From Moraxella sp. (GTDB lineage: Bacteria > Pseudomonadota > Gammaproteobacteria > Pseudomonadales > Moraxellaceae): a stretch of DNA of 64,000 bases. The stretch covers positions 1 through 64,000 of the forward strand of contig NZ_JAUNDY010000008.1 of NCBI RefSeq assembly GCF_030525845.1, in the 5' to 3' direction. The notes below the pieces were generated by a model. The model worked only from the letters and a program-made list of their open reading frames with translations, had not been told where the DNA came from and searched no databases. Of this stretch, positions 24,405 to 63,810 are shown in pieces (position 1 is the stretch's first letter; each line of letters begins with the position of its first letter). The position numbers were made by a program, and so were the translations under genes.

Positions 24405-27400
24405 TTGAAAGATTTATTAGACATCATGAAAGGCCCGACCGATGGTGGGGTAAAAGAATTTGACAGCATTCAAATCTCTTTGGCAAGCCCTGACACCATC
24501 AAATCATGGTCGCATGGCGAAGTCAAAAAGCCTGAAACCATCAACTACCGCACCTTTAAGCCTGAGCGTGATGGTCTGTTTTGTGCAAAAATCTTTGGAC
24601 CTGTCAAAGATTTTGAATGTTTGTGCGGTAAATATAAACGCCGTAAATTTCAGGGCATCATCTGCGAAAAATGTGGCGTAGAAGTAACTGCTGCCAAAGT
24701 TCGCCGTGAACGCATGGGGCATATTGAGCTTGCCTCGCCTGTTGCTCACATCTGGTTTTTAAAATCCTTACCAAGCCGTATCGGTCTTTTGCTTGACATC
24801 ACTTTGCGTGATATTGAGCGTGTGCTTTATTTTGAAAGCTACATCGTAACCGACCCTGGCATGACAGGCCTTGAAAAATATCAGCTTTTGGACGATGAAC
24901 AATACTTTAACGCCTTAGAGCAATATGGCGATGAATTTATTGCTAAAATGGGTGCAGAAGCCGTTCAAGATTTGTTAAAAGACATTGATGTCGATGGCGA
25001 AATTGATGAGCTTCGTGCCAGCATTCCACAAACCAGCTCTGAGACCAAGCTTAAAAAAATGTCCAAACGCTTACAGCTTTTGGAGGCTTTCCGTGATTCT
25101 GGCAACAAACCAGAATGGATGGTAATGACAGTATTGCCTGTGTTGCCACCTGATTTGCGTCCACTTGTACCGCTTGAAGGTGGTCGTTTTGCCACGTCTG
25201 ATTTGAACGACTTGTATCGTCGTGTTATCAACCGTAACAACCGTTTAAAGCGTCTATTGGAACTAAACGCCCCTGACATTATCGTGCGTAACGAAAAACG
25301 CATGCTCCAAGAAGCGGTGGATGCTCTGCTTGATAACGGTCGTCGTGGTCGTGCCATCACTGGCTCTAACAAACGTCCGCTAAAATCTTTGGCAGACATG
25401 ATTAAGGGCAAACAAGGCCGTTTCCGTCAAAACCTTTTGGGTAAACGTGTCGACTACTCAGGTCGTTCGGTCATCGTGGTTGGTCCTACGTTACGTCTAC
25501 ATCAATGCGGACTGCCTAAGAAAATGGCGCTTGAACTCTTTAAGCCATTTACCTATGCCAAACTGCTACAAAACAACATTGCCCAAACCATCAAAGCTGC
25601 CAAAAAAATGGTAGAGCGTGAAGAACCTGTGGTTTGGGACATGCTCGCTAGCGTGATTCGCGAACACCCTGTTCTACTTAACCGTGCACCGACCTTGCAC
25701 CGTTTGGGTTTGCAAGCCTTTGAACCTGTGCTGATTGAAGGTAAAGCGATTCAGCTTCATCCGCTGGTCTGTGCGGCATTTAACGCTGACTTTGACGGCG
25801 ACCAAATGGCGGTACACGTACCATTGACCCTAGAAGCACAGCTTGAAGCTCGCGCCCTCATGATGTCTACCAATAACATCTTGTCGCCAGCGAACGGTGA
25901 GCCGATTATTGTGCCATCACAAGACGTTGTTTTGGGTCTGTATTACATCAGTCGTAGCCACATTACTGCCAAAGGTGAGGGCATGGCGTTTAGTACGGTT
26001 AATGAAGCTTTGCGTGCGATTGGTTCGGACGATTTGTCTGTCAATGCCAAAATCAAAGTGCGTGTTACCGAGACGATTTTGGATGAAAAAACTGGCGAAA
26101 AAACCACTAAAACCGAAATCAAAGACACGGTTGCTGGTCGTCTTTTGATTTGGAATATCATGCCAGAGGGCATGGCGTTTGAAGAGTGCAACAAAGAGAT
26201 GACCAAGAAAAACATCTCTAAACTCTTAAACTCTTGCTATCGTAAACTGGGCGTTAAAGAATCAGTATTGTTTGCCGACCATTTGATGTATCTGGGCTTT
26301 GCCCAAGCAACCTTGTCAGGTATCTCGATTGGTATGGAAGACATGGTGATTCCGCCAAACAAAAAAGACATTGTAGAGAGTGCTGATAGTGAGGTTCGTG
26401 AGATTGAACAGCAGTTTGAAAAAGGTTTTGTAACCGCAGGCGAACGCTATAACAAAGTTGTTGATATCTGGTCTCGCACCTCTGACAAAATTGCCAATGC
26501 GATGATGGATAACTTATCTACCGATAATGTTGTTAATAGCAAAGGCGAACTTGAAAAAGAAAAATCCTTTAATTCCATCTACATGATGGCAGACTCAGGG
26601 GCTCGTGGTAGTGCCACCCAGATTCGTCAGCTTGCAGGTATGCGAGGCCTTATGGCAAAACCAGACGGCTCGATTATTGAAACGCCGATTAAAGCAAACT
26701 TCCGTGAAGGTTTGTCGGTATTGCAGTACTTTATCTCAACGCACGGTGCTCGTAAAGGTTTGGCGGATACCGCCCTTAAAACCGCAAACTCAGGTTATCT
26801 GACCCGTCGTTTGGTGGATGTGGCACAGGATTTAGTGATCACCCATGATGACTGTGGTACTGATGCTGGACAACGCATGACGCCCATCATTGACGGTGGA
26901 GAGATTGTTGAGCGTTTGGGCGACCGTGTCTTGGGTCGTGTAACTGCCAAAGACGTGGTTAATGCCGATGGCGAAGTCGTTATTGCCAAAAATACCTTGA
27001 TTGATGAACGTTTGGTAGAGGTGCTGGACAATCAAGCCATTGATGAAGTCTACGTGCGTTCAGTGATTACCTGCGAAGCAACGCAAGGTGTGTGTGCTAA
27101 GTGCTATGGTCGTGATTTGGCTCGTGGTCATTTGGTAAATATTGGCGAGTCTGTTGGCGTAATGGCGGCTCAGTCGATTGGCGAACCAGGTACACAGCTT
27201 ACCATGCGTACTTTCCACGTGGGTGGTGCCGCCTCTGCTACTTCTGTGGATAACAGTGTTTCAGTAGGCAATAACGGTTTGGTGCGTTTCCATAACATGA
27301 AAACCGTTGAGCATGTTGATGGTCATTTGGTGGTGGTGTCTCGCTCGGCAGAGATTGGTGTGGCAGATACACAAGGTCGTGAGCGTGAACGCTATAAAGT

Positions 27401-28637
27401 GCCTTATGGCTCTAACGTTTTGGTACGTGATGGCTCAGAAGTGAATGCTGGCGATACCATTGCTAAGTGGGATCCACATACCCACCCAATTATTACCGAA
27501 TTTGCAGGTACGGTGCGTTTTAGTGATATCGCTGATGGCATGACCGCTACTGTCAAGATAGATGAAACCACTGGTATGAGTTCTTTTGAGATTTTAGCGA
27601 CAAAAGACCGCCCAAGTCTATCCAAGGATTTGCGTCCCGCCATCGTTTTAGATACCGTAGATGGCAAAGAAGTGGTGTATTTCTTGCCTGCCGAGACTGT
27701 GATTCGTGTTACAGAGGGTGAGCAAGTAACCGCAGGTACGGTGCTAGGTCGTGTACCGCAAGCCACTTCGGGTACCAAAGACATTACAGGCGGTCTACCA
27801 CGTGTGGCTGACCTCTTTGAAGCCCGTAAACCAAAAGACCATGCCATCATGGCAGAAGTCAGTGGTGTCGTGTCATTTGGTAAAGAAACCAAAGGCAAAA
27901 ACCGCTTTATCATTACTGATGAGGAGGGCAATGAACATGAAGAGCTTATTCCAAAATGGCGTCAAATCAACGTCTTTGAGGGCGAGCATGTAGAGCGTGG
28001 CGAAATTGTCTCTGACGGCCCACTAAATCCGCATGATATCTTGCGTCTAAAAGGTGAAACCGCACTCGCCAACTACGTAGTGAATGAGGTGCAGGAAGTT
28101 TATCGCTTACAAGGTGTTAAGATTAATGACAAACACATTGAAGTGATTGTACGTCAAATGCTTCGCAAGGTTGAGGTTATCGATGGTGGTGATTCTAGTT
28201 ACTTTAAAGGCGACCAAGTGGAATATGCCAAAGTGCGTATCCTTAATGAGGAATTGATTGCCAACAATAAATTCCCAGTGGTGTACGAACGTCAGTTATT
28301 GGGTATTACCAAAGCGTCTTTGGCAACCGAATCGTTCATCTCGGCAGCGTCTTTCCAAGAGACTACCCGTGTCTTGACGGCAGCGGCTACGATGGGCAAA
28401 GTGGACGACTTGTCAGGTCTCAAAGAAAACGTCGTTGTGGGTCGCCTGATTCCAGCAGGTACAGGTTTGGCTTATCATCAAAACCGACAACGCCTTGCAG
28501 AGCGTGGTTTGGAGCCTGTTATTACGGTAACAGAAGACCCTTATACTAAGCCAGCCACTGACCCATTGTTTGGCGGTGTCGACGCAAAAGATGACTTTGC
28601 AGCTGCTTTTGCCAGCGAATTTGGTCAAAGTGAATAA
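24405..28637 (+). CDS. rpoC: RNA polymerase beta' subunit
   Basis: RpoC carries the RNA polymerase active site. It is 1410 residues long. The zinc-finger motif [20 protein letters not shown] is near residue 70 and the catalytic [12 protein letters not shown] near 460. The bridge and trigger regions and the second zinc cluster ([19 protein letters not shown]) are all present. The start codon is TTG at 24405: the following LLDIMK segment is the normal family N-terminus, a GCGGAG ribosome site lies about eight bases upstream, and there is no in-frame ATG nearby. It ends the transcription unit before a strong terminator. Confidence 0.98.
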
Positions 28638-28651
28638 ATTGCCCATCAAAT

Positions 28652-28677
28652 AAAAAGCTCACTTCGGTGGGCTTTTA
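28652..28677 (+). terminator. Rho-independent terminator after rpoC
   Basis: AAAAGCTCAC and GTGGGCTTTT close around a stable TTCG tetraloop (one G-U pair) and run into T's. Confidence 0.85.
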
Positions 28678-28751
28678 TTGTATTTGGCAATGTCTTGGAG
28701 ACTTGTGTTTAATGCCGTCAATTATTTTTTTAACCAATAAAGGAGGTGTAT

Positions 28752-29350
28752 GTGAACGAGAAATTGGCTTGGAAGATTTTTTGGGTAATGATTATTGTGC
28801 TATTATTAATGTCAATCATCATCACGATAATATCCTGTTATTTGTCTGCCTCTTGGCATGATTCTGCTGTTTTGGAGGCAATAAAAATGTTCCTGCTGTG
28901 TATTGGAGGTACTGGCGTTATTGCATCCATCTATTTTTTTCTGGGCTTAATATTTACTTGCAAAGAAAATTTAGTATCATGGAAAATACTTTTCATCTGC
29001 TGTTGCGTTGGGATGACGAGCATTATTTAAATGCTAGGCAGTTAACCAGAGACATTAAAAAAGAACAAAACGATTTATCATCTAATGAATTGATTGAAAA
29101 AATTGAACAAAATCCAGAATTGGAGCAATCAGTGATTTTGGTGTTAAATTATTTGGAGCATGTTAGGGTTTCTTTGATAAATGGGAGGATAGATAAAGAG
29201 GTATTTCGTCATTCGTTGGGAGAAACCTTGATTGGCATTGCTCAAAGATTTAAGCCATATGCGGTTACACTCAATCAGATAAACCAAGAGCATTTGGAGC
29301 AACTGATTGATGAATTAAAAATCAAATCGCAATTAACTCAAAATACTTAA
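28752..29350 (+). CDS. DUF4760-like membrane protein split over two frames (possible -1 frameshift)
   Basis: Frame one starts at GTG 28752 behind an excellent AGGAGG site (28741) and encodes two hydrophobic helices (WKIFWVMIIVLLLMSIIITI and MFLLCIGGTGVIASIYFFLG) before stopping at 29030. Frame two, lying one base back, continues from about 28973 to 29350 with a soluble helical part (RWDDEHYLNARQLTRDIKKE through YLEHVRVSLINGRIDKEVF). Together they match the plan of DUF4760-type proteins: two helices, then a helical cytosolic domain. ATG 28979 in frame two has no ribosome site. Either a programmed or mutational frameshift joins them, or these are two overlapping genes. A related protein lies at 63104. 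Confidence 0.6.
28967..28973 (+). other. Slippery heptamer in the overlap of the two frames
   Basis: In frame one the codons read A AAT TTA, an X XXY YYZ heptamer (AAATTTA). A -1 slip here leads exactly into the long downstream frame (AGT ATC ATG GAA). No strong stem was recognised directly downstream. Confidence 0.45.
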
Positions 29351-29390
29351 AGATTGTCATTAGAGCGTTTAAAAATCATACGATTTTGAT

Positions 29391-29424
29391 AAAAAAGCCG
29401 TCAATTTATCATTAACGGCTTTAT
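29391..29424 (-). terminator. Rho-independent terminator of nadE
   Basis: AAAGCCGT and ACGGCTTT pair around a 13-base loop, with T's on the minus-strand side. Confidence 0.7.
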
Positions 29425-29433
29425 GATTGATGG

Positions 29434-31104
29434 TTAAAACTCGCCAGTTACTGACCAACCATTGACCAGTGGATAGCGACGTTCACGCCCAAAGGATTTT
29501 TTGGTAATTTTGGTGCCGATAGCCCCTTGACGGCGTTTATGTTCGGCTTTATCCACCATAGTGAGTACCCGTTCAACTACTTTGGGGTCAAGTCCTGTCT
29601 CACAAATGGCCTTATAGCCTAAATCTTCGTCGATATACATTCTTAAAATAGTATCGAGTAGGGGGTAGTCAGGCAGACTGTCTTGGTCGGTTTGGTTTGG
29701 GCGAAGCTCTGCTGATGGTGGGCGTGAAATGACACGCTCAGGAATAACAGGCTCATCTTCTAGGCGATTGCGATAGTTGGCTAGGCGATACACGTCTGTT
29801 TTGTAGACATCTTTTAGGACATCAAAACCGCCGACCATGTCGCCGTAGAGTGTAGAATAACCAACCGCATTTTCGGATTTATTGCCTGTGCTGATGACCA
29901 TATGTCCAAATTTATTGGATAATGCCATTAAAATCACGCCTCTTGCCCGAGCTTGTAGATTCTCTTCGGTAACATCAGGGGCTGCCCCTGCAAAGAGGGG
30001 GGCGAGGGTGGATTTTAGTCCTGCAACGGCATCGTGAATAGGGCAGATGGTGTAGGAGACATTAAGTCTTGCAGCTTGTGCAGCAGCATCATCTAGGCTG
30101 ATTTGGGAAGTGTATTCGTACGGCATCATGACGGCATAGACTTTATCAGCACCGAGTGCATCTACGGCGATGGCAAGCGTCAATGCACTGTCGATACCAC
30201 CTGATAAGCCCAAAATTACCCCCTTAAACCCAGAGCGATTGACATAATCACGCAGTCCCACCACGAGGGCTTGGTAAATTTGGGATTCTTCGGATAAATC
30301 AAGCGGTGCTTTGGCTTGCGTATCAAAGCATTTATTGGCGACATCAAATTTTGCCATGATGAGCTGATTTAAAAATCTTGCCCCCTCGTGAGCAATCTCG
30401 CCATTTGATTGAGTGATGAGTGAGCCACCATCAAAGACGATGTCGTCTTGGGCTCCAACCGTATTGACATAGACGATGGGTAGACCATGTGTGGCAGACT
30501 GACGTGTGATGAGTGCTTTGCGTTCGTCTTGTTTGCCAATCTCAAAGGGCGAGGCGTTTAGTACGATGACAAGCTCTGCCCCTGATTCTTTTAGGGCGGC
30601 AATGGGAGCGTCATGCCAAATGTCTTCGCAGATGAGCAGTCCGATGGTCAAGCCCTTATAGTCAAATAAGACTTGGTTGCGACCTTTCTTGAAGTAGCGT
30701 AACTCATCAAACACGCCATAATTAGGCAGACATTGTTTGTGATAAAAGCCTTTTTGAGTGCCACCTTGCAAGATGGCGGCTGAGTTAAATGTGCCGTGAG
30801 AGTCCACGTGTGGATAGCCCAAGATGGTAACGATGCCATCTACTTTTGCTAGCTCATTCATGGCGATTTTGACACGTTCGGCAAGCGTGGGTCTTAGTAG
30901 CAAATCCTCTGGGGGGTAGCCCACCAGTGCCAGCTCTGGAAAAATAACAATATCTGCACCACGTGCTTTTGCATCTAGGGCAAGGGCTTTCATTTTGTTG
31001 ACGTTGCCCTTAATATCCCCCACCCAAAAATTCGTCTGCATGAGTGCAAAGGTAATCGTGCCATTGGGGGTGCTGATTTCGCTCAAATTTTCTTGTATTG
31101 ACAT
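29434..31104 (-). CDS. nadE: Glutamine-dependent NAD+ synthase
   Basis: This enzyme amidates nicotinic acid adenine dinucleotide to NAD+. The 556 residues contain an N-terminal nitrilase-type glutaminase domain with the Glu (IFPELALVGYPPEDLLL, near 57), Lys (FYHKQCLPNYGVFDE) and Cys (IGLLICEDIWHD) catalytic triad, and a C-terminal synthetase with the P-loop LGLSGGIDSALTLAIAVDAL near 305, GNKSENAVGYSTLYGD and GGFDVLKDVYKTDVY. The two-domain form uses glutamine rather than free ammonia. It is a single gene with its own terminator. Confidence 0.96.
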   Translation of the reverse strand: MSIQENLSEISTPNGTITFALMQTNFWVGDIKGNVNKMKALALDAKARGADIVIFPELALVGYPPEDLLLRPTLAERVKIAMNELAKVDGIVTILGYPHVDSHGTFNSAAILQGGTQKGFYHKQCLPNYGVFDELRYFKKGRNQVLFDYKGLTIGLLICEDIWHDAPIAALKESGAELVIVLNASPFEIGKQDERKALITRQSATHGLPIVYVNTVGAQDDIVFDGGSLITQSNGEIAHEGARFLNQLIMAKFDVANKCFDTQAKAPLDLSEESQIYQALVVGLRDYVNRSGFKGVILGLSGGIDSALTLAIAVDALGADKVYAVMMPYEYTSQISLDDAAAQAARLNVSYTICPIHDAVAGLKSTLAPLFAGAAPDVTEENLQARARGVILMALSNKFGHMVISTGNKSENAVGYSTLYGDMVGGFDVLKDVYKTDVYRLANYRNRLEDEPVIPERVISRPPSAELRPNQTDQDSLPDYPLLDTILRMYIDEDLGYKAICETGLDPKVVERVLTMVDKAEHKRRQGAIGTKITKKSFGRERRYPLVNGWSVTGEF

Positions 31105-39928: not shown

Positions 39929-40117
39929 ATGTACATTTGTTTAATGTCAGAAAATTTTGTATAATGGTTGTGGATTTGGGGTGTGTCCCATTTTTAATGC
40001 AAACATGATGACGTTAATTTGTCAATTATTTTTCATCTGTAAAGAATATTATAAATGCTCAACACGCACTAATGTTGAAATTCTAATTCCAATACAAATC
40101 AATCAAGAGAGATGATT

Positions 40118-40867
40118 ATGGCATTTAAAGATATGGTAGGGCAGCACGTCCCAAGCGTAACTTTTCGTACCCGTCAGGGCGATAACTGGGTGGATGTAAC
40201 CACTGATGAGCTATTTAACGGCAAAAAAGTCGTATTGTTTAGCTTGCCTGGTGCGTTTACACCCACTTGTTCGTCAACGCACCTGCCACGCTATAACGAG
40301 CTTGCAGGCGAGTTTAAGAAGCTTGGTGTGGACGACATTATTTGTCTGTCGGTCAATGATACTTTTGTAATGAATGCATGGAGGGCCGACCAAGAATGTG
40401 CCAACATCACTGTCATTCCTGATGGTAATGGCGAGTTTACCGATGGTATGGGTAGATTGGTGGGCAAAGAAAATTTAGGCTTTGGTAAGCGTTCATGGCG
40501 TTACTCGATGCTTGTGGATAATGGCGTGATTGTCAAAATTTTTGACGAACCAGAAAAAGACGGCGACCCCTTTGAAGTGTCGGACGCTGATACCATGATT
40601 AAGTATCTTGACCCAACATGGACGGATAAACCATCGGTGGCGGTGATTTCTAAGGCGGGTTGCCCGTTTTGTATCAAAGCCAAAGAAGCTCTGACGGCTC
40701 GTGGCGTCTCATTTGAGGAGCTTGTGCTTGGTCGTGATATTACCATGACGGCGGTGCGTGCCATGACGGGGCGTGAGACTGCACCACAGATTTTTGTGGG
40801 TGGCAAGCATATCGGCGGCTTCGATGATTTGGAGGCGTATCTTAGTGGCGGCGAGTGCCTACTGTAA
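40118..40867 (+). CDS. Peroxiredoxin-glutaredoxin fusion (hybrid Prx5)
   Basis: This thiol peroxidase carries its own reductant. Residues 1-160 are a Prx5 domain with FSLPGAFTPTCSSTHLPRYN, holding the peroxidatic Cys, and the SVNDTFVMNAWRADQ segment. Residues 170-249 are a glutaredoxin domain with the CxxC site AGCPFCIKAKEAL and the glutathione-binding end TAPQIFVGGKHIGGFDDLEA. The fusion is known from Haemophilus, Neisseria and other pathogens, where glutathione reduces it directly. ATG 40118 follows a GAGAGATG-type site; an ATG at 40112 would add two residues. A terminator follows, then an insertion sequence. Confidence 0.95.
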   Translation: MAFKDMVGQHVPSVTFRTRQGDNWVDVTTDELFNGKKVVLFSLPGAFTPTCSSTHLPRYNELAGEFKKLGVDDIICLSVNDTFVMNAWRADQECANITVIPDGNGEFTDGMGRLVGKENLGFGKRSWRYSMLVDNGVIVKIFDEPEKDGDPFEVSDADTMIKYLDPTWTDKPSVAVISKAGCPFCIKAKEALTARGVSFEELVLGRDITMTAVRAMTGRETAPQIFVGGKHIGGFDDLEAYLSGGECLL

Positions 40868-40884
40868 TTATTAGCTACCATTTT

Positions 40885-40916
40885 AACCACTATCTCATTA
40901 GATGGTGGTTTTTTAA
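40885..40916 (+). terminator. Rho-independent terminator after the Prx-Grx gene
   Basis: AACCACTATCT and AGATGGTGGTT form an 11-bp stem (one G-U) with a T-run. The insertion element landed four bases past this T-run. Confidence 0.8.
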
Positions 40917-40920
40917 ATTT

Positions 40921-41699
40921 GGCATTATTCACAAACCATACATAACTCAACCTACCATTCCACTTAGCAAACAGCAAGTTCAGTGAGTTTTCTATCATCT
41001 TTTGGCATTTGGAATAACACTTGGTTTTGCGTTTAAACCTTGCAAGATAGTGGCGAATTCTACCATTATGACTTTCTATTGTAAAAGTCTCTTTCTTGCT
41101 GTGTCGGTGTTTGTGGCTTGGAATAACTTCCTGATAAGTTTTCCAGTAATCGCTACAAAACAAAGTAATGTTATGTCTGTTTGGCTGACCGTACAATCTT
41201 TTAAAGGTTTTACTGTCTCGTTTGCCACAACAAAACCTAAGACTTGCTTGGTGTCTGTCTTGATGGCAATCCATGTCCAGCAGTAGTTTTTTAAACTTGC
41301 TGTAACTGTGAATTTCATCAAGCTCTACAATGTCAATGGGTTCATTGTGTTGGGTTAAATTGGCATTGTAGATGTCTTGATGTTTAATGCCTGAGTTTTT
41401 AACCCAATATATGTCCAATACCCAGCACACGACCAATGGCACGAAAGCCTAAAACTTCAAGATACATGTCAATGGCTAGCTTTCTAACACTTTCATCTTT
41501 TTTGTTACTCTTATAAAGCACGGTAAAGTGATATTTACAGTCTTTACATCGATGTCTTTGTTTGCCGTAGGCAAAGCCTGCCTTAACAATGTGATTGGAT
41601 TGACATTTTGGACAATAATCTAAGAGTATCATGGATTGCTTGGTCTTTGGTTGTTGTGGATTGGGTATTATAGCCTAGGTATAGGGGTTGAATAATGCC
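40921..41699 (-). mobile_element. IS1-family insertion sequence, 779 bp, with inverted ends and 8-bp target duplication
   Basis: The left end GGCATTATTCA (40921-40931) and right end TGAATAATGCC (41689-41699) are an exact 11-bp inverted repeat. The element is bracketed by the direct repeat TTAAATTT at 40913-40920 and 41700-41707. An 8-bp duplication and a size near 770 bp fit the IS1 family. The transposase inside is damaged (next entry), so this copy should not move by itself. Confidence 0.88.
40924..41632 (-). pseudogene. IS1-family transposase, multiply frameshifted
   Basis: The N-terminal InsA-like part (41632 down to about 41410) has a zinc finger CPKCQSNHIVKAG...HRCKDCKYHF and a helix-turn-helix GFRAIGRVLGIGH. 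The frame then shifts, with residues missing compared with the usual helix end, into WVKNSGIKHQDIYNANLTQ and the DDE part EPIDIVELDEIHSY. A one-base gain in an A-run near 41288 puts NYCWTWIAIKTDTKQVLGFV in another frame, and a one-base loss near 41216 returns to KRDSKTFKRLYGQ ... FCSDYWKTYQEVIP ... FTIESHNGRIRHYLARFKRK. The frame reads out through the left end into host DNA. Confidence 0.82.
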
Positions 41700-41758
41700 T
41701 TAAATTTATAAAATACCATGTTTGTACCCAAATCAATATTTTGAAACTTATCCGCTCT

Positions 41759-41991
41759 TTATCCACAAATCCTGTGGATAACTATGTGGATAACTTTATG
41801 ATTATTCGCCAAAAACCCCAATTTATCAATGCAGTAAGTTAATTGGTTAAAAATTATACAAATATTAATGTGAAAATAATACCAACAAAATCAATAAGTT
41901 AATATATGGCGTTTTTATTTATTTCTTGGGTATTCCTGTGATGTCATTAACGGTATTTGACTTATGCCATATCGGCGGGTTTTGTGGATAA
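41759..41991. promoter_or_regulatory. Cluster of four perfect DnaA boxes flanking an AT-rich stretch
   Basis: TTATCCACA occurs forward at 41759-41767 and, as TGTGGATAA, at 41773-41781, 41785-41793 and 41983-41991. The first three are packed 12-14 bases apart. Between them and the fourth is about 190 bases of very AT-rich DNA without a gene. This 380-base gap between the IS and the binding-protein gene otherwise holds only the terminator at 42031. It looks like a DnaA-binding locus (titration, reactivation or origin type). Confidence 0.65.
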
Positions 41992-42030
41992 TTTTGAGTG
42001 TTATGCATGATTTGTGAGGTATTTTATAAT

Positions 42031-42056
42031 AAAAATTCCCCAAATAATGGGGAATT
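42031..42056 (-). terminator. Rho-independent terminator of the binding-protein gene
   Basis: AATTCCCC and GGGGAATT are exact complements around a 7-base loop; on the minus strand a T-rich tail follows. Confidence 0.75.
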
Positions 42057-42079
42057 GTGGTCAAATGACGCTAAGGGAT

Positions 42080-42907
42080 TTATTTGGCTTCGGTGGCATC
42101 TGAGATTTCGTTGTTGGTAGCGGCAACGTCATTACCGAACCATTTGGTATAAATTTGGTCGTATGTGCCATCAGCACGGATTTGTTTCATGCCGTCATTT
42201 AGAATGTCTAGTAATGCTGTGTCGTCTTTTTTGACTGCCATGGCAATCATATCTGGCTCGCCCTCATCAGGCAATGCGTCTATCTTGCTGTCTGGATATT
42301 TGCCATGAAAGTGCATGATTACACCTTTATCGCCGATAAAGACATCTTGCTCGCCTGTAAATACCGCTTTTAATGCCAAATAAGGCGTATCATAAGTAGT
42401 GTGATTGATGTTATATTTACCAGCCAATTCTTGTTGAAGTGTGTCAAATTGTACTGCTACTTGTTTATTAGCCAAATCTTTCCAGTTGGTGATGGCAGTG
42501 TTTGTGGTGTGCAGGGCGTAGGTGGCTGATTGAAAATGCGGTGTTACAAAGTTATATTTTTGCTGACGCTCTGGGGTAACTGAGATATTGGAAGTGATGA
42601 TATCAGCTTCCCCTGACTCTAAGCTGGCAAACATGCCGTCCCACGTCTTTGAGATGAAGTCTAGGTTAAAGCCTTTTTTCTGGGCGATGGCTTGAAGTAA
42701 GTCGTGCTCAAATCCTGAAACCCGACCTTTTTCATCACGGACGATGAATGGTGCAGATTCGTTTTCGGTAACCACCAAATAAGTCTTACCAGTGTTTTGG
42801 GTGGAAGGTGTCTCGCTTGGTGCGGTGGTGGCTTGGGCTGGCTTATCTTCACTACCACAGGCACCAAGTAATAGAGATAACCCTAAGATGGATAATGGTT
42901 TTTTCAT
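42080..42907 (-). CDS. Amino-acid-type ABC solute-binding lipoprotein (family 3), phase-variable promoter
   Basis: The 275-residue product starts MKKPLSILGLSLLLGACGSE, a lipoprotein signal with lipobox LLGAC. The body is a family 3 binding protein: YLVVTENESAPFIVRDEKGR, VSGFEHDLLQAIAQKKGFNL, FASLESGEADIITSNISVTP, NKQVAVQFDTLQQELAGKYN and the C-terminal IRADGTYDQIYTKWFGNDVA. Such proteins bind amino acids for an ABC importer, but no permease or ATPase gene is beside it. ATG 42907 is preferred to 42955 because the signal peptide starts there. Expression should depend on the G14-spaced promoter at 43098-43126. Confidence 0.9.
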   Translation of the reverse strand: MKKPLSILGLSLLLGACGSEDKPAQATTAPSETPSTQNTGKTYLVVTENESAPFIVRDEKGRVSGFEHDLLQAIAQKKGFNLDFISKTWDGMFASLESGEADIITSNISVTPERQQKYNFVTPHFQSATYALHTTNTAITNWKDLANKQVAVQFDTLQQELAGKYNINHTTYDTPYLALKAVFTGEQDVFIGDKGVIMHFHGKYPDSKIDALPDEGEPDMIAMAVKKDDTALLDILNDGMKQIRADGTYDQIYTKWFGNDVAATNNEISDATEAK

Positions 42908-42948
42908 AACATGACCTCGTATTGTAGATGACATGGCATTCATGGTAA

Positions 42949-43032
42949 GGGGCATACCCCACTTAATGACACTTTATCGCCTGAGAGAATTGGCGATGGT
43001 CGGTGTTTTTTTATCAATACCGAAGTGGGGTG
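42949..43032 (-). promoter_or_regulatory. Structured 5' leader with mutually exclusive stems, function unknown
   Basis: Within the 5' UTR of the binding-protein gene, ACCCCACTT (42956-42964) and AAGTGGGGT (43023-43031) form a 9-bp outer stem. It encloses the hairpin ATCGCC/GGCGAT (42976-42981 with 42992-42997). The CCCC used in the outer stem (42957-42960) can instead pair with GGGG at 42949-42952 to make a short hairpin just before the start codon. This is the logic of a riboswitch or attenuator, but I could not match it to a known class. Confidence 0.5.
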
Positions 43033-43097
43033 GTACACCTTATTTACGGTGCTTTGAGTAATGTGAAAATACCTAAACAGTCCATGAAGTTGTGCTG

Positions 43098-43126
43098 ATT
43101 TTACCCCCCCCCCCCCCATTTGTCAA
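43098..43126 (-). promoter_or_regulatory. Phase-variable sigma-70 promoter with G14 spacer
   Basis: Read on the minus strand: a consensus -35 TTGACA (43126-43121), then AAT plus 14 G (43104-43117 on the plus strand are all C), then -10 TAAAAT (43103-43098). The spacer is exactly 17 bases, the optimum. Slippage in the G-run would change the spacing and so the promoter strength. Start site would be near 43090, giving a 5' UTR of about 180 bases. Confidence 0.8.
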
Positions 43127-43244
43127 GCAAAAATGAGCCAACATAAAACAACCAAACCCATAAATCGAGCAGATGGATCAGTCAAATATCCAAAAAAATC
43201 CCCCAAACCATCGGCTTGGAGGACTTTGAGGATTGTATGGAGGA

Positions 43245-44897
<1,653 letters not shown>

Positions 44898-44934
44898 TTA
44901 AATTTCGGTAAGGTGGTTTGGGTTTTGGGGCAAA

Positions 44935-45222
44935 TTATTCAAGTACGCCCAAAACATCGCTCTCTTTCATAATGAGTAGTTCTTCGCCATCCACTTTGAC
45001 GGTTTGACCTGCGTATTGACCGAACAACACTTTGTCGCCCACTTTGACATCTAGGGGACGCACCTCGCCATTATCACGAATTTGACCTTTGCCCACTGCG
45101 ATGATTTCGCCTTGTTGGGGTTTTTCTTGGGCAGAACCTGGCAGAATGATACCGCCTGCGGTTTTTTGCTCTTCTTCGGTACGGCGAACCACGATACGGT
45201 CGTGTAGGGGACGAATTGACAT
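44935..45222 (-). CDS. groS: Co-chaperonin GroES
   Basis: GroES caps the GroEL chamber. From ATG 45222 it has 95 residues, with [20 protein letters not shown], the mobile loop [20 protein letters not shown], and [24 protein letters not shown] lies upstream of this ATG; a start at 45234 would add four residues and is disfavoured. First gene of the operon with groEL, behind a heat-shock-like promoter. Confidence 0.98.
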
Positions 45223-45272
45223 AAATTTCTCCATTAAATGATAAAAGACTGGTTAATCCAGATTGCTTGTAA

Positions 45273-45300
45273 AAATAGGGTTTGGGTGGAAATTTTCAAG
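45273..45300 (-). promoter_or_regulatory. Sigma-32-like heat-shock promoter of groES-groEL
   Basis: On the minus strand CTTGAAA (45300-45294), 13 bases, then CCCTATTT (45280-45273) resembles the sigma-32 consensus CTTGAAA and CCCCATNT. It lies about 50 bases upstream of groES. Confidence 0.6.
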
Positions 45301-45408
45301 GCAAACGATGATGTTGTGTTGATAATTTGATTTTAATTTATTGATTTTATTAAAAAAATTATATTTATTTTGATTGATTTACCCACTATGAAAACGCATG
45401 AAAATTTA

Positions 45409-45417
45409 TGCTATAAT
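45409..45417 (+). promoter_or_regulatory. Extended -10 promoter for der
   Basis: TGCTATAAT is an extended -10 element (TGN plus perfect TATAAT), 40 bases before the der start. The -35 region is poor, as often with extended -10 promoters. Confidence 0.55.
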
Positions 45418-45456
45418 AACGAGTTTAATCAATTTAAATAAAATCTCGAGAAAACC

Positions 45457-46875
45457 ATGTCCCTAAAACCTGTTGTCGCCCTTGTCGGTCGTCCCAATGT
45501 CGGCAAATCCACGCTGTTTAATCAGCTGACCAAATCCCGCCAAGCCCTAGTCGCAGACTTGGCAGGCTTAACCCGAGACCGTCAGTATGGCGATGTCTAT
45601 TTTGAGGAAAAATCGTTCATCGTGGTTGACACGGGGGGCATTGGCGAGGCAGATGACGGCACGGGCAACATTGATGATTATATGGCGACACAGTCATACA
45701 CCGCCATGCATGAGGCGGACATCGTGGTGTTTGTGGTGGACGCACGGGCAGGACTGACCCCAAGTGATGAGCAGATTGCCAAGTTTTTGCATACGCTTGG
45801 TAAACCTGTGTTTTTGGTCGCCAACAAAACGGACGGCGTGCATGAGGCGAGCGTGGCAGAATTTTTTGGGCTTGGGCTTGGTGAGCCTATCCCCACGAGT
45901 GCCAGTCATGGTAAGGGGGTAACAAGCCTACTTGAAATCATCACGGCAGACATGCCAGCCATAGAAAGTGTGGACGAGACAGCGGACGCGCTAAAACTTG
46001 CCATCATCGGTCGCCCCAATGTCGGCAAATCCACGCTGGTGAATCGCCTTTTGGGTGAGGAGCGTGTGGTGGTGTTTGATATGCCCGGCACAACGAGGGA
46101 TAGTATTTATATTCCTTTTGAGCGGGAAGGTTATCAGTATACACTCATTGACACAGCGGGCGTGAGACGGCGTGGACGCATTGATGAAAAAGTAGAAAAG
46201 TTTAGCGTTATCAAGACCTTACAAGCCATTAAAGATGCCAATGTCGTGGTGCTTGTGGTGGACGCTCACGAGGGGATTGTTGACCAAGATTTGCACATGC
46301 TGGGCTATGCTCTGGACGCTGGGCGGGCGATTGTGATTGCCATTAACAAATGGGATAATCTCACCCAAGAGCAAAAAGACATCGTCAAAATTGAAATGGA
46401 CAGACGTTTTAACTTCATTCCTTGGGTAAAAATTCACCTGATTTCTGCCCTATATGGCAATGGCGTGGGTAATCTGTATCCGTCCATTCATAAGGCGTAC
46501 GATGCGTCTATGTTTAAGGTGTCCACCTCTCGCCTGACGCAAATTCTCCAAGATGCGGTGGAAAATCATCAACCACCAATGGTGGGTGGTCGCCGTATCA
46601 AACTTCGCTACGCCCATTTGGGTGGGCATAATCCGCCCGTGATTGTCATTCACGGTAACCAAACTTCGGCTTTGCCTAAATCTTATCAGCGTTATTTGGA
46701 AAATGTTTATCGCAATGTGTTTAAACTCGAAGGTACGCCTTTGCACATTGAATTTAAACAAAATGACAACCCTTATAAAGATAAGAAAAATCCCAAAGTG
46801 GTCAATAAAGCCAAAGCCATGCGTGAGAAAAAACGTATTGCTGAGTTTAAGAAAAGAGAGAAAAAGAGAAAGTAA
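45457..46875 (+). CDS. der: Ribosome-biogenesis GTPase Der (EngA)
   Basis: Der is an essential GTPase of 50S subunit assembly with two tandem G domains. The 472 residues show [20 protein letters not shown] and [11 protein letters not shown] in the first domain and a second [20 protein letters not shown] with [12 protein letters not shown] from about residue 185. INKWDN is the second G4 motif. The C-terminal KH-like domain contains [20 protein letters not shown], and a Lys/Arg-rich tail ends the protein. The stop codon overlaps the next ATG (TAATG). Confidence 0.97.
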
Positions 46876-55873: not shown

Positions 55874-55900
55874 ATGCTTAATAAAACATTGAGAAATTTT

Positions 55901-56722
55901 ATGAAATGCTCTACTAAAAAATACACTTCACTGGTAAAATTTGGTGCTGTGATTGGCATGGTTACTCTAACGTCTGTACTGTCTGCCTGTGGTAATGAGG
56001 CGGCTGCCAAATCCGATGATGCACAACTTGAAAACAAAACTTTAAAGGTTGCGGTAGGTGGCAACATGCCTCCCTTTACGTTCATTGATAATAAGGGCTT
56101 ACCTATCGGCTTCGATGTTGATGTTATCACACACATCGCCACCAAAAATGGCTATGAGGTCAAATTCAACATTTTGCCATGGCAGGATTTATTTTCATCG
56201 GTAGAAAAGGGCGATAGTGATGTGGCTTTGTCGGCGATTTCTTACTCTGTTGAGCGTGAGGGTAAGTATCTACTAAGTAACCCTTATGTGTACATGCCTG
56301 CTGGTATCTTGTCGTTGGAGCAAACAGGTGTTACGTCAGTGGCAGACCTAAAACCCTTGCGTTTGGGTATGATGCCAAGCTCGGTATTTATGGAATTTGC
56401 AACTACGCACGGCATCAACCAAACTGTGGTCAAGGAACGGATATTTTTGAGTTTCAAAGACTTGGTGCGTGGCGATGTCGATGCCATCATTTCTGACAAA
56501 CAGATTGTTGGTTATATTGCTAATAATTATCCTGATTATAAATTTAATATTTTAGAGCATGGCGATGTCAATGACAAAGGGTCTTATGCAGTGGCACTTA
56601 CCTCAAAAAATCAAACGGCACTCATACAGATGTTCAATACAGGCATTGCCGACATGAAAGCCTCAGGCGAGCTTGCTCGTCTTGAAAAGAAATGGTTTGG
56701 AGATACCACAAAGGTTCAGTAA
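55901..56722 (+). CDS. Amino-acid-type solute-binding lipoprotein, tandem copy 1
   Basis: From ATG 55901 the protein has 273 residues. The signal KYTSLVKFGAVIGMVTLTSV ends in lipobox VLSAC, so it is membrane-anchored. The body is a family 3 binding protein: LKVAVGGNMPPFTFIDNKGL, PIGFDVDVITHIATKNGYEV, DLFSSVEKGDSDVALSAISY, SFKDLVRGDVDAIISDKQIV and the end MKASGELARLEKKWFGDTTK. ATG 55874 would add nine residues; the parallel with copy 2 favours 55901. No permease or ATPase is adjacent. Copy 2 lies 70 bases downstream and shares long identical DNA stretches. Confidence 0.88.
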   Translation: MKCSTKKYTSLVKFGAVIGMVTLTSVLSACGNEAAAKSDDAQLENKTLKVAVGGNMPPFTFIDNKGLPIGFDVDVITHIATKNGYEVKFNILPWQDLFSSVEKGDSDVALSAISYSVEREGKYLLSNPYVYMPAGILSLEQTGVTSVADLKPLRLGMMPSSVFMEFATTHGINQTVVKERIFLSFKDLVRGDVDAIISDKQIVGYIANNYPDYKFNILEHGDVNDKGSYAVALTSKNQTALIQMFNTGIADMKASGELARLEKKWFGDTTKVQ

Positions 56723-56792
56723 AATTAATGAGCATGAATGTGGGCTTGGTTTGCCCAAGTCCATAAATTTTAATCAAGTATAAGGAGATATG

Positions 56793-57620
56793 ATGAAATC
56801 CTCTCGTGCAAAGTATGCGTCGTTTTTAAAATTCGGTGCTGTGATGGGTGTTGTTGGTATGGCAGTTCTTTTATCTGCCTGTGGCGATGAGGCAGACACC
56901 AAAGACAGAGTGGCACAACCTGAAAATAAAACCTTAAAGGTTGCGGTAACTGGCAATAGAGCCCCCTTTACATTTGTGGATAACAAGGGCTTACCTATCG
57001 GCTTCGATGTTGATGTTATCACACACATCGCCACCAAAAATGGCTATGAGGTCAAATTCAACATTTTGCCATGGCAGGATTTATTCCCATCGGTGGAAAG
57101 TGGTGGTAGTGATATGGCGATTTCTGCCATCTTATATTCTGTCGAGCGTGAGGGTAAGTACCTACTATCCAATCCTTATACGTACATGCCTGCTAGCATT
57201 TTATCACTAGAAAAAACAGGGATCTCTTCGGTGGAGGATTTAAAGCCCTTGCGTTTGGGTATGTTATCGGGTTCTATTTTTCAAAATTTTGCCAACGCTC
57301 ATGGTATTGACCAAGTGGTATTTCAAAGTAAAAACTTCTTGACTTTTAAAGACTTGGTGCGTGGTGATGTCGATGCCATCATTGCTGGTAAGCAGATTGT
57401 TGGACATATGGCGGATAATTATCCTGACTATCAGTTTAATCTTTTGGAGGCTGGCGATATTAACGATAAAGGCTCATACACAGTGGCACTTGCCTCAAAA
57501 AATCAAACGGCACTCATACAGATGTTCAATACAGGCATTGCCGACATGAAAGCCTCAGGCGAGCTTGCTCGTCTTGAAAAGAAATGGTTTGATAATAGCA
57601 ATAATGCTCAAACCCAATAA
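56793..57620 (+). CDS. Amino-acid-type solute-binding lipoprotein, tandem copy 2
   Basis: The 275-residue product begins MKSSRAKYASFLKFGAVMGV with lipobox LLSAC. ATG 56793 sits five bases after AAGGAG; the ATG at 56790 is too close. The first-lobe segment NKGLPIGFDVDVITHIATKN and the last 35 residues before the tail are identical to copy 1 at DNA level, while ligand-facing parts differ (SVESGGSDMAISAILYSVER, LLSGSIFQNFANAH). This suggests recent duplication with partial gene conversion and possible divergence of specificity. Orphan of its transporter in this window. Confidence 0.88.
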   Translation: MKSSRAKYASFLKFGAVMGVVGMAVLLSACGDEADTKDRVAQPENKTLKVAVTGNRAPFTFVDNKGLPIGFDVDVITHIATKNGYEVKFNILPWQDLFPSVESGGSDMAISAILYSVEREGKYLLSNPYTYMPASILSLEKTGISSVEDLKPLRLGMLSGSIFQNFANAHGIDQVVFQSKNFLTFKDLVRGDVDAIIAGKQIVGHMADNYPDYQFNLLEAGDINDKGSYTVALASKNQTALIQMFNTGIADMKASGELARLEKKWFDNSNNAQTQ

Positions 57621-57670: not shown

Positions 57671-58028
57671 GGGGATGTTCTGGCTTCGACGCTGGTAATG
57701 AAACCTAGTAGTGCATGTCAAGAGCGTATGTCTCTTGTAAATCAACGTACATTTAAAATAGTCGCAAACGACGAAACTTACGCACTAGCAGCCTAAGGGC
57801 TACTTGGGTCGGTACAGATTGCCTTTGGTCTGGTTACTCACCCCGATGCGAACGCACAAAGGATAGCTTGATTTAGCGTTGCGATGAATTAGGCGAACTT
57901 TTAGCAAATCGTCCAAGCCTACCTGACTGTCGGTTCGGTGCGGATTAAAGCCATAGACAGATTCTAAGCATGTAGAGCCATGAGCGTAGTGCTGGCGGAC
58001 GCGGGTTCAACTCCCGCCATCTCCACCA
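57671..58028 (+). ncRNA. ssrA: Transfer-messenger RNA
   Basis: tmRNA rescues stalled ribosomes and tags the peptide for proteolysis. The 5' end GGGGATGTTCTGGCTTCGAC and 3' end GGGTTCAACTCCCGCCATCT followed by CCACCA form the alanine-tRNA-like domain. The resume codon is GCA at 57764 and the tag reads ANDETYALAA, then TAA (57794-57796). The tag is that expected for Moraxellaceae, and this supports the taxonomic placement. The 3' end is the attachment site of the element that follows. Confidence 0.97.
58015..58028 (+). repeat. Left attachment site (attL) in the ssrA 3' end
   Basis: CGCCATCTCCACCA at the ssrA 3' end is repeated exactly at 62812-62825 in the same orientation. Confidence 0.75.
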
Positions 58029-58080
58029 CCTATCAAAATCACTAAAAATCATCAAGTATTTTTAAGCGTCATAAACCATC

Positions 58081-58109
58081 AAAAAAGCCTTGTAAATCAA
58101 GGCTTTTTT
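58081..58109 (+). terminator. Rho-independent terminator after ssrA
   Basis: AAAAAAGCCTTG and CAAGGCTTTTTT are exact complements around TAAAT, 53 bases past the tmRNA, inside the element. Confidence 0.85.
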
Positions 58110-58218
58110 ATTGTCTTATTGTATCTCATAAAGTCATCGTGTATCATAGTAAATCAACGAACATCAAACGATTTTACACACACGGCGACACACAGCCACA
58201 CACGAGATACACACACCA

Positions 58219-58473
58219 ATGCTCACCGATAACAAAATCAAAGGGCTAAAACCCACCGAAAAACGCTACTCGCTATCAGCAGGCGAAGGCTTATCCATTG
58301 ATGTCATGCCAACAGGTCGTAAGTCTTGGGTACTAGAATACACCGCCCTTGGCAAACGAAAACGCAAAAAGTTAGGCGAATACCCCGCCGTCAGTCTCAA
58401 ACAAGCCCGAGAGCTTGCCAATAAAATCAAAGGCAATGCAGGACTAACGCCCCAATCCAACTTACACGCTTGA
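58219..58473 (+). pseudogene. Tyrosine recombinase, N-terminal arm-binding domain only
   Basis: The 84-residue ORF reads MLTDNKIKGLKPTEKRYSLS and continues with DVMPTGRKSWVLEYTALGKR and KKLGEYPAVSLKQARELANK, the DUF4102 arm-DNA-binding domain of P4-type integrases, normally about 400 residues. The core-binding and catalytic domains are missing, and a stop follows the unrelated tail GNAGLTPQSN. Its place next to the ssrA 3' end fits an integrase that used tmRNA as target. It is a deletion remnant and cannot act. Confidence 0.85.
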
Positions 58474-58477
58474 TTAT

Positions 58478-59018
58478 TTGTTGGATAATTTCGCCCAAAT
58501 CAAAGACATTGGCAAAATCACCAACAAAATCTATGACATTACCAACGCCATAGAGATGACCAAGACCCATTTTATCGGCATGGTTGGTAAAGAGCTTGCC
58601 AATGCGTGGCTGTTTAGCGGTAAGCAAAAGACGATAGACCGCAAAATCGTCCGCACCGAACAAGCCGAAGTAACCGCCAAAGAGTACAAAGACATCTTTG
58701 AGCAGTACTGGTACATCCAAGGCACCAAAGAAGTGTTTAATTTTAAGACAGGCAAACGCCAGCCGATAGAGACACTTCGCCTAGAATACCCCAATGAGTT
58801 CGACATCTGGAACAAATCCGAAAAACGCCAAAAAGTAGAATCGCATAATATTTGGTTTGACCCCACCAAACGCCGTGTCGCCCAGCCGTCGCCAGTATTA
58901 TCGTCTGCCATTTGATACTGCCATTACCAACATCATCAATCACATCACCGCCATTGCCAAAGTCGTCGCTGGTAAAGTCCAAGCCCAGCTCGGAAAAAAC
59001 TTTCAAGCAGGCTATTGA
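58478..59018 (+). pseudogene. Phage/plasmid primase-like fragment, frameshifted
   Basis: The open frame from 58454 (TTG 58478) reads LDNFAQIKDIGKITNKIYDI then GKELANAWLFSGKQKTIDRK and EVFNFKTGKRQPIETLRLEY with HNIWFDPTKRR, which resembles the region before the helicase domain of phage primases (DUF5906 type). It stops at 58915 after a frame change; RRQYYRLPFDTAITNIINHI then continues in another frame to the stop at 59018. Neither a real start nor the catalytic domains are present. The family call is a guess from pattern. Confidence 0.4.
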
Positions 59019-60061
59019 CAGAGCCGCCAGCAGGCGTTTTCAAAGAAAAATTAGACTACGCAAGGGGCGTACGAGACGGCAAGATTGACGACCCAAGATT
59101 TTTGCCTGTATTGTACGAGTTTCCCCAAAGCTATATTGAGTCTGGCGAGTATATCCAGCCTGAAAATTGGTATATTACCAACCCCAATCTTGGGGCGAGC
59201 GTTGGCGTTGATGAACTTAGCGACATTCTAAGAAAAGCTAAAGAATCCCACGACAAAAACACCCTACAAACCGCCCTTGCCAAACATTTAAATGTGGAAA
59301 TTGGTATCAGTTTGCGGGCAAACCGCTGGGCAGGAGCAGAATTTTGGGAAAAGGCAGGATGGGCATTTACGCTTGATGAACTCATTGAAAAATCGGAAGT
59401 GATTACAATAGGCGGAGACGGTGGCGGTCTCGATGACTTGCTTGGCTGTGCGGTAGTTGGACGGTTGCCCACGCCCAAATACATTTACACCGATGACGGC
59501 GGTATTCGCCACGAAGTCAAGCAATGGTGGGTGTGGGTCAAAGCGTGGTGCCACCCGATTGCGTTGGAACGTAGAAAGCAAGACGAGCCTCGTTATCGTG
59601 ATTTTGAAAAAGATGGCGATTTGGTGGTGGTGGAGAATGTCGGCGATGATGTGGCAGAATTTGCCGACATTGCCAAAAAGATTTTTGACAGCGGTAAACT
59701 TGACCGCATTGGGCTTGACCCAGCAGGAGCGGACGATATTGTCATCGCCCTAGAATCCATCGGCATTCCCAAAGACCCCAAAATCACAGGCGTATCACAA
59801 GGCTGGAGGCTGGGCGGTTATCAAAAAGTGTGTGAACGCAAAATCGCAAGTGGCGACCTGCTCCACGCAAATCAGCCGTTAATGGCGTGGTGTGTGGGCA
59901 ATGCACAGGTAAAAACAACGGGTTCTGGCGTGATGATGAGTAAATCAGAAAGTGGCAATGGCAAGATTGACCCTGTCATTGCAATGCTAAACGCTGTGGC
60001 ATTGATGAGCCAAAACCCCACACCACCAAAGTCGGCTGATGATGTGGGGATTTATTTTTGA
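59015..60061 (+). pseudogene. Phage terminase large subunit, C-terminal part
   Basis: 348 codons encode the nuclease half of an HK97-type large terminase: PPAGVFKEKLDYARGVRDGK, DLDAxTxD-like metal site VITIGGDGGGLDDLLGCAVV, then LDRIGLDPAGADDIVIALES and the final Asp region GKIDPVIAMLNAVALM. Full proteins are about 550 residues and start with an ATPase (Walker A and B), which is absent here. The ORF opens directly after the primase-like remnant, so a deletion fused the two. It is non-functional as a packaging motor. Confidence 0.8.
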
Positions 60062-60156
60062 CTGGCTATACAAAAATGGCTTGATAAAAGGTGTATTGAA
60101 CTATATAATTATACCGATACACTGATTTATTTTTATTAAAAACAAAAGGAGCGATT

Positions 60157-60336
60157 ATGAATAATCGCACTACCCAAAATACCGAACAAAACCATGCTCA
60201 TAAACTTGCACAGTTATTTGTAGATTTTGCCCAACATTTACAAACTGATGCCAAACGATTTAATGAAGAGCATAAAGAGACCAAAGAGAGGCTAAAAAAT
60301 GGCACAAAGCTTACCAAACACCGAATTACTCTTTGA
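60157..60336 (+). CDS. 59-residue protein upstream of the cargo gene
   Basis: ATG 60157 lies after AAAAGGAG with good spacing. The product is hydrophilic and helical (NTEQNHAHKLAQLFVDFAQH, EEHKETKERLKNGTK). It overlaps the start of the 60299 gene by 38 bases in another frame, so the two are translationally coupled. It is not recognised; a small partner or regulator is possible. Confidence 0.5.
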   Translation: MNNRTTQNTEQNHAHKLAQLFVDFAQHLQTDAKRFNEEHKETKERLKNGTKLTKHRITL

Positions 60337-61123
60337 TTTTCTGTATGTGGACACTGACCGCATTAAATCCTATTACGCTCAGCTAACAGGCTTTGGGTCT
60401 TTATCCAGTTTAAAAATGTCAGACAATACTGTTATGACTCAGCTGAAAGAAGCAACGGTTGGTGTACCTACGGTCACAGGCGGTAAACTATCTCACGCCA
60501 AGATGATGACAAATACTGGGGAACGCTACTATGACCCCACACCATCCATGCCAACCGATGTCATCAATCGCCTAGATGAACTTGGGTTTATTAAGCGTGA
60601 ATTGAGTCGGGATAATTTAGGTAATTTAGTACTACTTTCTGGCGAACTTGGAATTTCAGACATTAGTTTGTTAAAAGACACAATAGACATTATTCTAAGA
60701 CAAGCCGCTGAAGAAAAAGCACAAGCGGAGCCAAACCCTAAAAAACGCAAACAAATTTACGAACAAGAAGTCAAAGACAATAAACATATTGCCGAATTTT
60801 TAAAACATATTCCCTACTCATTAGAAGCACGGCTAATACTTGGTAATGATGAAGTGTGGATGACTCTAAATCGTGATGAAATCATCGGCAACGCTTATGA
60901 AATCAACTTTAAACATGGTGATTTTTTGTTGGGTGATTATTATGTGCTCGGCATATTAGATGCAATGCCGAATGATGATTACAGCAACCATCAACACCAA
61001 AATGAGTTTAGAGTCGCCATGTCTACCATGCTCCAAGAACTAAAAGCACTCATGGGGAGACCTAATACTTGCTACGGCGTAACACCAATTGCAATATTTA
61101 GAACAATTAAGCCAAATAATTAA
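60299..61123 (+). CDS. DUF6414-like protein, prophage cargo
   Basis: The 274-residue protein opens TELLFDFLYVDTDRIKSYYA followed by QLTGFGSLSSLK. A beginning with a strand, then YxD-x-D-R-I-x-S-x-Y-x-Q is how DUF6414-family proteins start; these are of unknown function and often lie in mobile or defence regions. Two further parts are seen: a helical middle (EEKAQAEPNPKKRKQIYEQE) and a beta-rich end (HGDFLLGDYYVLGILDAMPN). It sits between terminase and protease, where no phage structural gene of this kind belongs, and its frame is intact while neighbours are broken. The family call is by resemblance. Confidence 0.55.
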   Translation: MAQSLPNTELLFDFLYVDTDRIKSYYAQLTGFGSLSSLKMSDNTVMTQLKEATVGVPTVTGGKLSHAKMMTNTGERYYDPTPSMPTDVINRLDELGFIKRELSRDNLGNLVLLSGELGISDISLLKDTIDIILRQAAEEKAQAEPNPKKRKQIYEQEVKDNKHIAEFLKHIPYSLEARLILGNDEVWMTLNRDEIIGNAYEINFKHGDFLLGDYYVLGILDAMPNDDYSNHQHQNEFRVAMSTMLQELKALMGRPNTCYGVTPIAIFRTIKPNN

Positions 61124-61190
61124 TTTTTTTAACTCATGAATCAATCCGCCCTTGTTTAGCAAGTTGGCGGTTTTTTATTGGAAAAAAATA

Positions 61191-62630: not shown

Positions 62631-62669
62631 AAGTGATGGGCGAGTGAGTCGGAATGAGACTTAAAATAT

Positions 62670-62698
62670 TTGTCAATCCCTGTTTTACTTGCTATAAT
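62670..62698 (+). promoter_or_regulatory. Strong sigma-70 promoter near the right attachment site
   Basis: TTGTCA (62670-62675), a 17-base spacer, and a perfect TATAAT (62693-62698). No ORF of note follows before the right att site; it reads toward the flanking DNA. Confidence 0.6.
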
Positions 62699-62811
62699 AG
62701 CAGGCATATAGTTTAGTGATTGATGGCAACCACACACAGAACCCACACAAAATCAGATGATTTTTAAAAATATCTATAAAAATCAATGATTTATATAAAA
62801 TAATCAGTGGT

Positions 62812-62825
62812 CGCCATCTCCACCA
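62812..62825 (+). repeat. Right attachment site (attR)
   Basis: Second exact copy of CGCCATCTCCACCA, as in the ssrA 3' end. Confidence 0.75.
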
Positions 62826-63793: not shown

Positions 63794-63810
63794 CTTTATG
63801 TTTGATATGT

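Follow-up and report, generated by a model that had tools for sequence, protein, structure and literature searches.

Slippage-switched genes known so far encode mostly surface antigens, LOS enzymes and DNA methylases. In the opc promoter of Neisseria meningitidis, a poly-C tract within the promoter is said to set the expression level. For the meningococcal surface protein gene porA, the excerpted text of PMC3639595 gives high expression with 11 G residues, two-fold lower expression with 10 and 13-fold lower expression with 9. In the genus Moraxella, the phase-variable loci of M. catarrhalis named in the excerpted text of PMC7302503 are uspA1, uspA2, mid/hag and mod, with a poly-G tract at mid/hag.

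The locus described here lies in a 64,000-nucleotide stretch of Moraxella sp. DNA (the window, meaning the whole stretch that was analysed) from the genome that we denote G000. As at porA in the same excerpt (PMC3639595), a G tract forms most of the spacer between the −35 and −10 elements, and graded expression levels would be expected. The window site differs from porA in its perfect −35 TTGACA, its G14 tract and its target, which is an SBP_bac_3 lipoprotein gene and not a porin gene, and it is known here from sequence. It is like the opc promoter in that a promoter homopolymer would set the level, with another base on the coding strand and another target. It shares its genus with the M. catarrhalis loci and a poly-G tract with mid/hag, whereas those loci are adhesins and methylases in the excerpted text (PMC7302503).

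The preliminary description of this DNA had placed a consensus TTGACA and a TAAAAT on the minus strand, 17 bases apart, with 14 of those bases an uninterrupted run of G. Direct reading of that strand returns exactly this arrangement, TTGACA-aat-G14-TAAAAT from 43126 to 43098 (Table 1). The homopolymer makes up most of the spacer and the spacing is 17, both as in the porA-type layout. In a consensus scan of positions 40000-46000, the G14 promoter scores 11/12 and ranks first among 16 promoter-like sites, a number that is itself unremarkable because shuffled sequence yields 12.5; it is also the sole promoter-like site in 43090-43260. A weaker site (9/12) at 42948-42921 is nearer the SBP gene. 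In the window, the second-longest homopolymer of G or C measures 7, and dinucleotide frequencies predict 0.00016 runs of 14 or more per window. When a G14 was placed at random points in 152,664 bases of the same genome (300,000 trials), sites of at least 11/12 with a spacer of 16-18 arose at a frequency of 5.7e-5, or of 1.4e-4 at a GC content of 36% or less, so that an insertion gives so good a promoter in about one case per 7,000-18,000; none of the 300,000 insertions combined such a score with a spacer of exactly 17. The presence of the G14 tract in a promoter is not due to chance. The site is best read as a PorA-type promoter that slippage would tune, and as assembled it is predicted to be near its optimum. 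Of the PorA-like phase-variable interpretation proposed at the outset, the arrangement itself, its assignment to this gene and a predicted high state at spacer 17 stood on the sequence; slippage and its effect on expression are inferred from a single assembly.

Table 1. Features of the window promoter and its gene, G/C tracts at SBP genes of the same genome, and sites of similar promoter layout in the genome and genus
Feature	Location	Strand	Description or basis
−35 hexamer TTGACA	43121..43126	(-)	direct read, promoter scan
aat, first three spacer bases	43118..43120	(-)	direct read
G14 tract; with aat, the 17-base spacer	43104..43117	(-)	direct read; chance estimates
−10 hexamer TAAAAT	43098..43103	(-)	direct read, promoter scan
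Predicted leader	42908..43091	(-)	predicted transcription start; distance from −10 box
SBP_bac_3 lipoprotein gene, 275 aa, without adjacent transporter genes	42080..42907	(-)	Pfam, neighbourhood
Terminator-like hairpin and U run, on the groEL side of the promoter	43195..43227	(-)	−20.8 kcal/mol, z −3.78
Terminator-like hairpin 3' of SBP gene	42034..42056	(-)	scan
SBP tract 1	window G14		promoter spacer
SBP tract 2	C9:21471		C14 in probable leader, 70 nt 5' of ATG, then 8-pair hairpin
SBP tract 3	C19:8584		G9 within signal peptide, in frame
SBP tract 4	C8:85577		C11 behind lipobox cysteine, out of frame as sequenced
SBP tract 5	C19:63676		C9 behind lipobox cysteine, out of frame as sequenced
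SBP site 6	C9:30970		TTGACA-aca-G7-ttgtt-TATAAT, spacer 15
Promoter-like site	C32:5255 (G000; L098 1490-1805)		TTGACA-aaaat-G12-TAGAAT, spacer 17
Two tandem Opa-like porin genes	C30 of G000, 27104-30112 (L096)		TTGCAA and a G tract before both
Promoter-like site	C35 of G000	C strand	TTGAAA-20-TATAAT, near contig end
Congener site	G003:C16		spacer 16, before Opa-like porin
Congener site	G003:C10		G7, spacer 15, before small exported protein
Congener site	G006:C1:1654077 (L173, G006:C1:1652500-1668000, tract 1592-1601)		TTGACA-aaatatgc-G10-TAAAAT, spacer 18, directly before zorA-zorB-zorE
Congener site	G006:C1:1885388 (L174, G006:C1:1871000-1887500, tract 14396-14405)		TTGACG-aaatcgca-G10-t-TACAAT, spacer 19, after groEL, before dndC
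Congener site	G017:C20		spacer 19, before DUF4407 protein, without PADLOC match
Congener site	G016:C20		spacer 15, before small exported protein

The gene behind the promoter had been described as encoding an amino-acid-type binding lipoprotein, and this assignment is borne out. Its product combines a signal peptide and a lipobox, LLGAC (by eye), with a full-length Pfam SBP_bac_3 domain (E 2.1e-37, 128.3 bits against a curated cut-off of 26.4). In sequence, the protein has relatives among structurally solved amino-acid binders, and its TPER segment aligns with the TPER region of those binders, the arginine of which we take to hold the ligand carboxylate. In its full-length domain and its solved-binder relatives it is like other SBP_bac_3 amino-acid-binding lipoproteins; it differs in having no adjacent transporter and in belonging to a genome with 18 matches per one permease pair. 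All 14 of its NCBIfam matches fall under their cut-offs, and none gives a named transport function (equivalog). The closest congener match is at 35%, in G008, and the closest match outside the genus, in a scan of genome contigs (8 loci), is at 38%, in Stenoxybacter acetivorans. Matching plasmid records number 1920, every one below 60%, and among contigs and plasmid records no close relative is informative on tract variation.

The −10 box lies 190 nt from the ATG, which gives a long predicted leader; an alternative in-frame ATG at 42955 would shorten the leader, but the lipobox would then be internal to the protein. Within the leader, a stem CCCCAC/GUGGGG encloses two hairpins. Its hairpin pattern resembled a small riboswitch. 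The fold as a whole has a z of −1.65, a modest gain over shuffled sequence, with 11 of 200 shuffles as good; none of 10 Rfam matches (E up to 10) reaches the gathering score, and in the genus the leader has no relatives beyond short words (best E 0.006). A riboswitch was rejected on these three results. The predicted upstream hairpin, which is absent from the list of the consensus scan, separates the G14 promoter from groEL. Given hairpins on both sides, the SBP gene seems to form a single-gene unit with a promoter to itself and a predicted transcription start. Inheritance of the promoter in its place after groEL was considered and rejected. Downstream of its groEL, G008 has TGACAAATGGGGG in a comparable position, which is too weak for descent because terminator T runs share such words; 13-base words are also common to two other genomes (L134, L139) via these runs.

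The SBP family of this genome is large. One genus-wide search gives 18 SBP_bac_3 matches in G000, one of them a fragment. Polar amino-acid permease genes (TIGR01726) number two, a single pair, both on contig C1 beside three tandem SBP genes, and BPD_transp_1 matches number six in all. Within the window, two further SBP_bac_3 genes, 77% identical, stand in tandem beside a tmRNA gene (55900-57620). Five of the 18 SBP genes have a G/C tract of at least 8, and a sixth has a G7 in a promoter spacer (Table 1). The initial view of a single promoter is thereby widened, as the window tract is one of several on SBP paralogues of the same genome, each with its own slippery tract, as in a contingency-locus gene family. 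G tracts of at least 8 number 33 in the genome, and five of them are at SBP genes, as against 0.39 expected (P of at least five, 6e-5); with the window tract left out, the count is 4 of 32 (P 6e-4). Two of the genes, at C8:85577 and C19:63676, stop after 34 and 37 codons, the remainder being open, and the members in frame and out of frame are different genes of one draft genome. As assembled, the predicted states are high for the window gene, low for C9:30970, on for C19:8639 and off for C8 and C19:62946, all provisional because a draft assembly may be wrong by one base per tract. Orphan SBP genes carry tracts in six of 15 cases and transporter-linked ones in none of three, a difference that is not significant (P 0.5). 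Together, the tracts suggest that orphan binding lipoproteins form a phase-variable repertoire here. A G14 tract also lies 5' of a Peripla_BP_4 lipoprotein gene (L085).

A real and slippery promoter could also have been acquired by chance, the SBP genes being accessory and their tracts tolerated, with no selected repertoire. This is unlikely, although part of the evidence fits it. In a comparison of 48 proteins (18/18 of the SBPs of this genome, 11/11 of those of G008 and 19/92 of the other congener rows), the three C1 SBPs have best relatives at 76-85%, and five of the six tract-bearing SBPs have best relatives at only 32-45%. The exception is C19:62946, at 65% to a G002 relative that has no G/C run of at least 6 within 300 bases upstream of the aligned region. 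The divergence of most tract-bearing SBPs, the two genes that are out of frame and the occurrence of poly-G promoters before other genes are all compatible with chance acquisition. However, both out-of-frame genes are open for 225 and 229 codons past the tract, unlike decaying genes, and the excess of tracts at SBP genes over expectation is spread over four kinds of position.

The tract-bearing SBP genes can be set against the genus. SBP_bac_3 matches in 21 congeners total 103, with 0 to 14 in each. G007 gave no match in any genus search and is probably unreadable, because even GroEL gives none; the informative congeners number 20. Between −350 and +900 of the inferred SBP starts, none of the 230 congener tracts is found, a count made by script for 99 of the 103 SBP rows and by eye for the other four, which are fragments with no listed tract nearby. 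The difference from G000 is significant by Fisher's test both for tracts at SBP genes (5/33 vs 0/230, P 2e-5) and, with the four extra rows taken by eye, for SBP genes with a tract (5/18 vs 0/103, P 4e-5). One near miss falls outside the 350-base limit. In AT-rich DNA of G015, a G13 tract (L032 1070-1082, G015:C46) ends 394 bases before an SBP ATG, with no convincing intervening gene and no clear promoter boxes; with this tract counted, the congeners stand at 1/230 (P 1.3e-4). By eye, other tracts lie upstream of SBP genes at about 770 bases (G005) and about 1200 bases (G019). Tracts at SBP genes are strongly enriched in G000 and not strictly confined there. The notion of one species only is weakened by the near miss in G015 and by the probably unreadable G007; the switch itself is not.

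An assembly artefact or an unused site, with an incorrectly assembled tract length or with another promoter in the leader driving the gene, is very unlikely. The assembly is a draft (93.65% complete) with N runs, one of them beside a G tract, and the leader is long, with the 9/12 site as a candidate within it. Against this, the G14 tract sits inside a 77.9 kb contig, the G14 promoter is much nearer consensus than the leader site, and four of five single-contig congeners also carry tracts of at least 8 (G004 10, G006 7, G012 15, G013 5; none in G007, which is probably unreadable).

The promoter layout of the window site has counterparts elsewhere in the genome and genus. A genus-wide pattern search gave 12 matches in six of 22 genomes, compared with two for the reversed pattern. 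Among the 33 tracts of G000, 11/12 promoters at spacer 17 are found at the window site and at C32:5255. The tandem Opa-like porin genes of C30 have promoters with a G9 and spacer 16 (TATAAT) and with a G15 and spacer 21 (TAGAAT), and from these spacers the two genes are predicted to be in different states. The remaining tracts of this genome, C35 apart (Table 1), have no promoter pair, or weaker, badly spaced pairs. In G006, the genes directly behind one tract match zorA, zorB and zorE in PADLOC (E 4e-117, 2e-91 and 1e-85; Zorya type II by PADLOC names), and those behind the other are dndC (4e-128), a PbeC/DndD-type gene (2e-107) and an FtsK/SspH-type gene; Zorya phage defence in G006 is possibly phase-variable. 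Weak or doubtful among the 12 matches are G002:C8, G003:C30 and C13:104888 of this genome. The nine better sites, three from this genome and six from congeners, have spacers of 17, 17, 15, 16, 15, 18, 19, 19 and 15. That the tract works by structure, as stiff or G-quadruplex DNA or a protein-binding site, with its exact length hardly mattering, is highly improbable: a G14 run is able in principle to form a quadruplex and the nine sites keep to no single length, but slippage alone would also give their spread of 15 to 19, and the two longest-tract TTGACA sites of G000 (G14 and G12), with different flanks, both have spacer 17. By eye, an apparent outer-membrane protein gene remnant lies 3' of the C32:5255 promoter, upstream of a polA-like gene. 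Two further tracts of this genome are at genes of the usual phase-variable classes, a G13 before a YadA/ESPR-type autotransporter gene (L094, C29) and a G11 where an Eco57I-type restriction-modification gene passes from one frame to another (L076, C13).

The window site is probably a slippage-set sigma-70-type promoter, and its SBP gene one of five or six tract-controlled, mostly orphan members of the family. The layout, the tracts, the two out-of-frame genes, the one permease pair and the rarity of congener tracts come from the sequence; slippage, its effect on transcription and any advantage we infer. Gain or loss of a single G at replication would move the −35/−10 spacing off 17 or restore it. 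Transcription would peak near 17 and drop on both sides, so that expression of the lipoprotein would be stepped between levels, as with meningococcal porA. With each tract setting its SBP gene separately, a population would come to hold many combinations. The advantage may lie in selecting the substrate that a single shared importer receives, or exposed lipoproteins may in this way evade antibodies or phages.

A broader reading, possible rather than probable, is that the species keeps a combinatorial set of slippage-switched orphan amino-acid-binding lipoproteins, serving a shared importer or acting as surface antigens or sensors, as a form of bet-hedging in nutrient binding, and that the same layout before anti-phage genes in the genus makes defence phase-variable at transcription. 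If so, contingency loci would extend to nutrient capture, or 'transport' lipoproteins would face the host. The relatives suggest anti-phage genes behind spacer-length promoters, which would give defended and undefended cells in a clonal population. This type of promoter is already described; the novelty seems to lie in its cargo. Among the matches listed from the open-access literature, no title reports phase-variable solute- or substrate-binding proteins as a family switched one by one, nor phase-variable Zorya, phosphorothioation or anti-phage promoters with poly-G spacers, and in the matches listed for Moraxella phase variation and porA-type promoters neither finding is reported by title. 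Term searches found no 'substrate-binding' in PMC5953494, PMC5084427 or PMC7302503, and the terms 'abc transporter', 'phage defence' and 'Zorya' are absent from the review PMC11868660. PMC8713573 pairs phase variation with phosphorothioation, which in the excerpted text of that article occurs only in the reference list.

The window also holds mobile DNA. Just 3' of the SBP gene lies an IS1-like transposase split over two ORFs (40501-41632, minus strand), one of which runs antisense into a peroxiredoxin-type gene; this region has no match among plasmid records. After the tandem SBP genes at 55900-57620 come an integrase-like ORF (by eye) and DNA of a prophage (57671-63900). The prophage segment 58200-63900 is in keeping with the genus Moraxella and speaks against M. 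catarrhalis itself: it matches 10 phage records, all of M. catarrhalis, and the top match is at 79%, covering 36% of the query.
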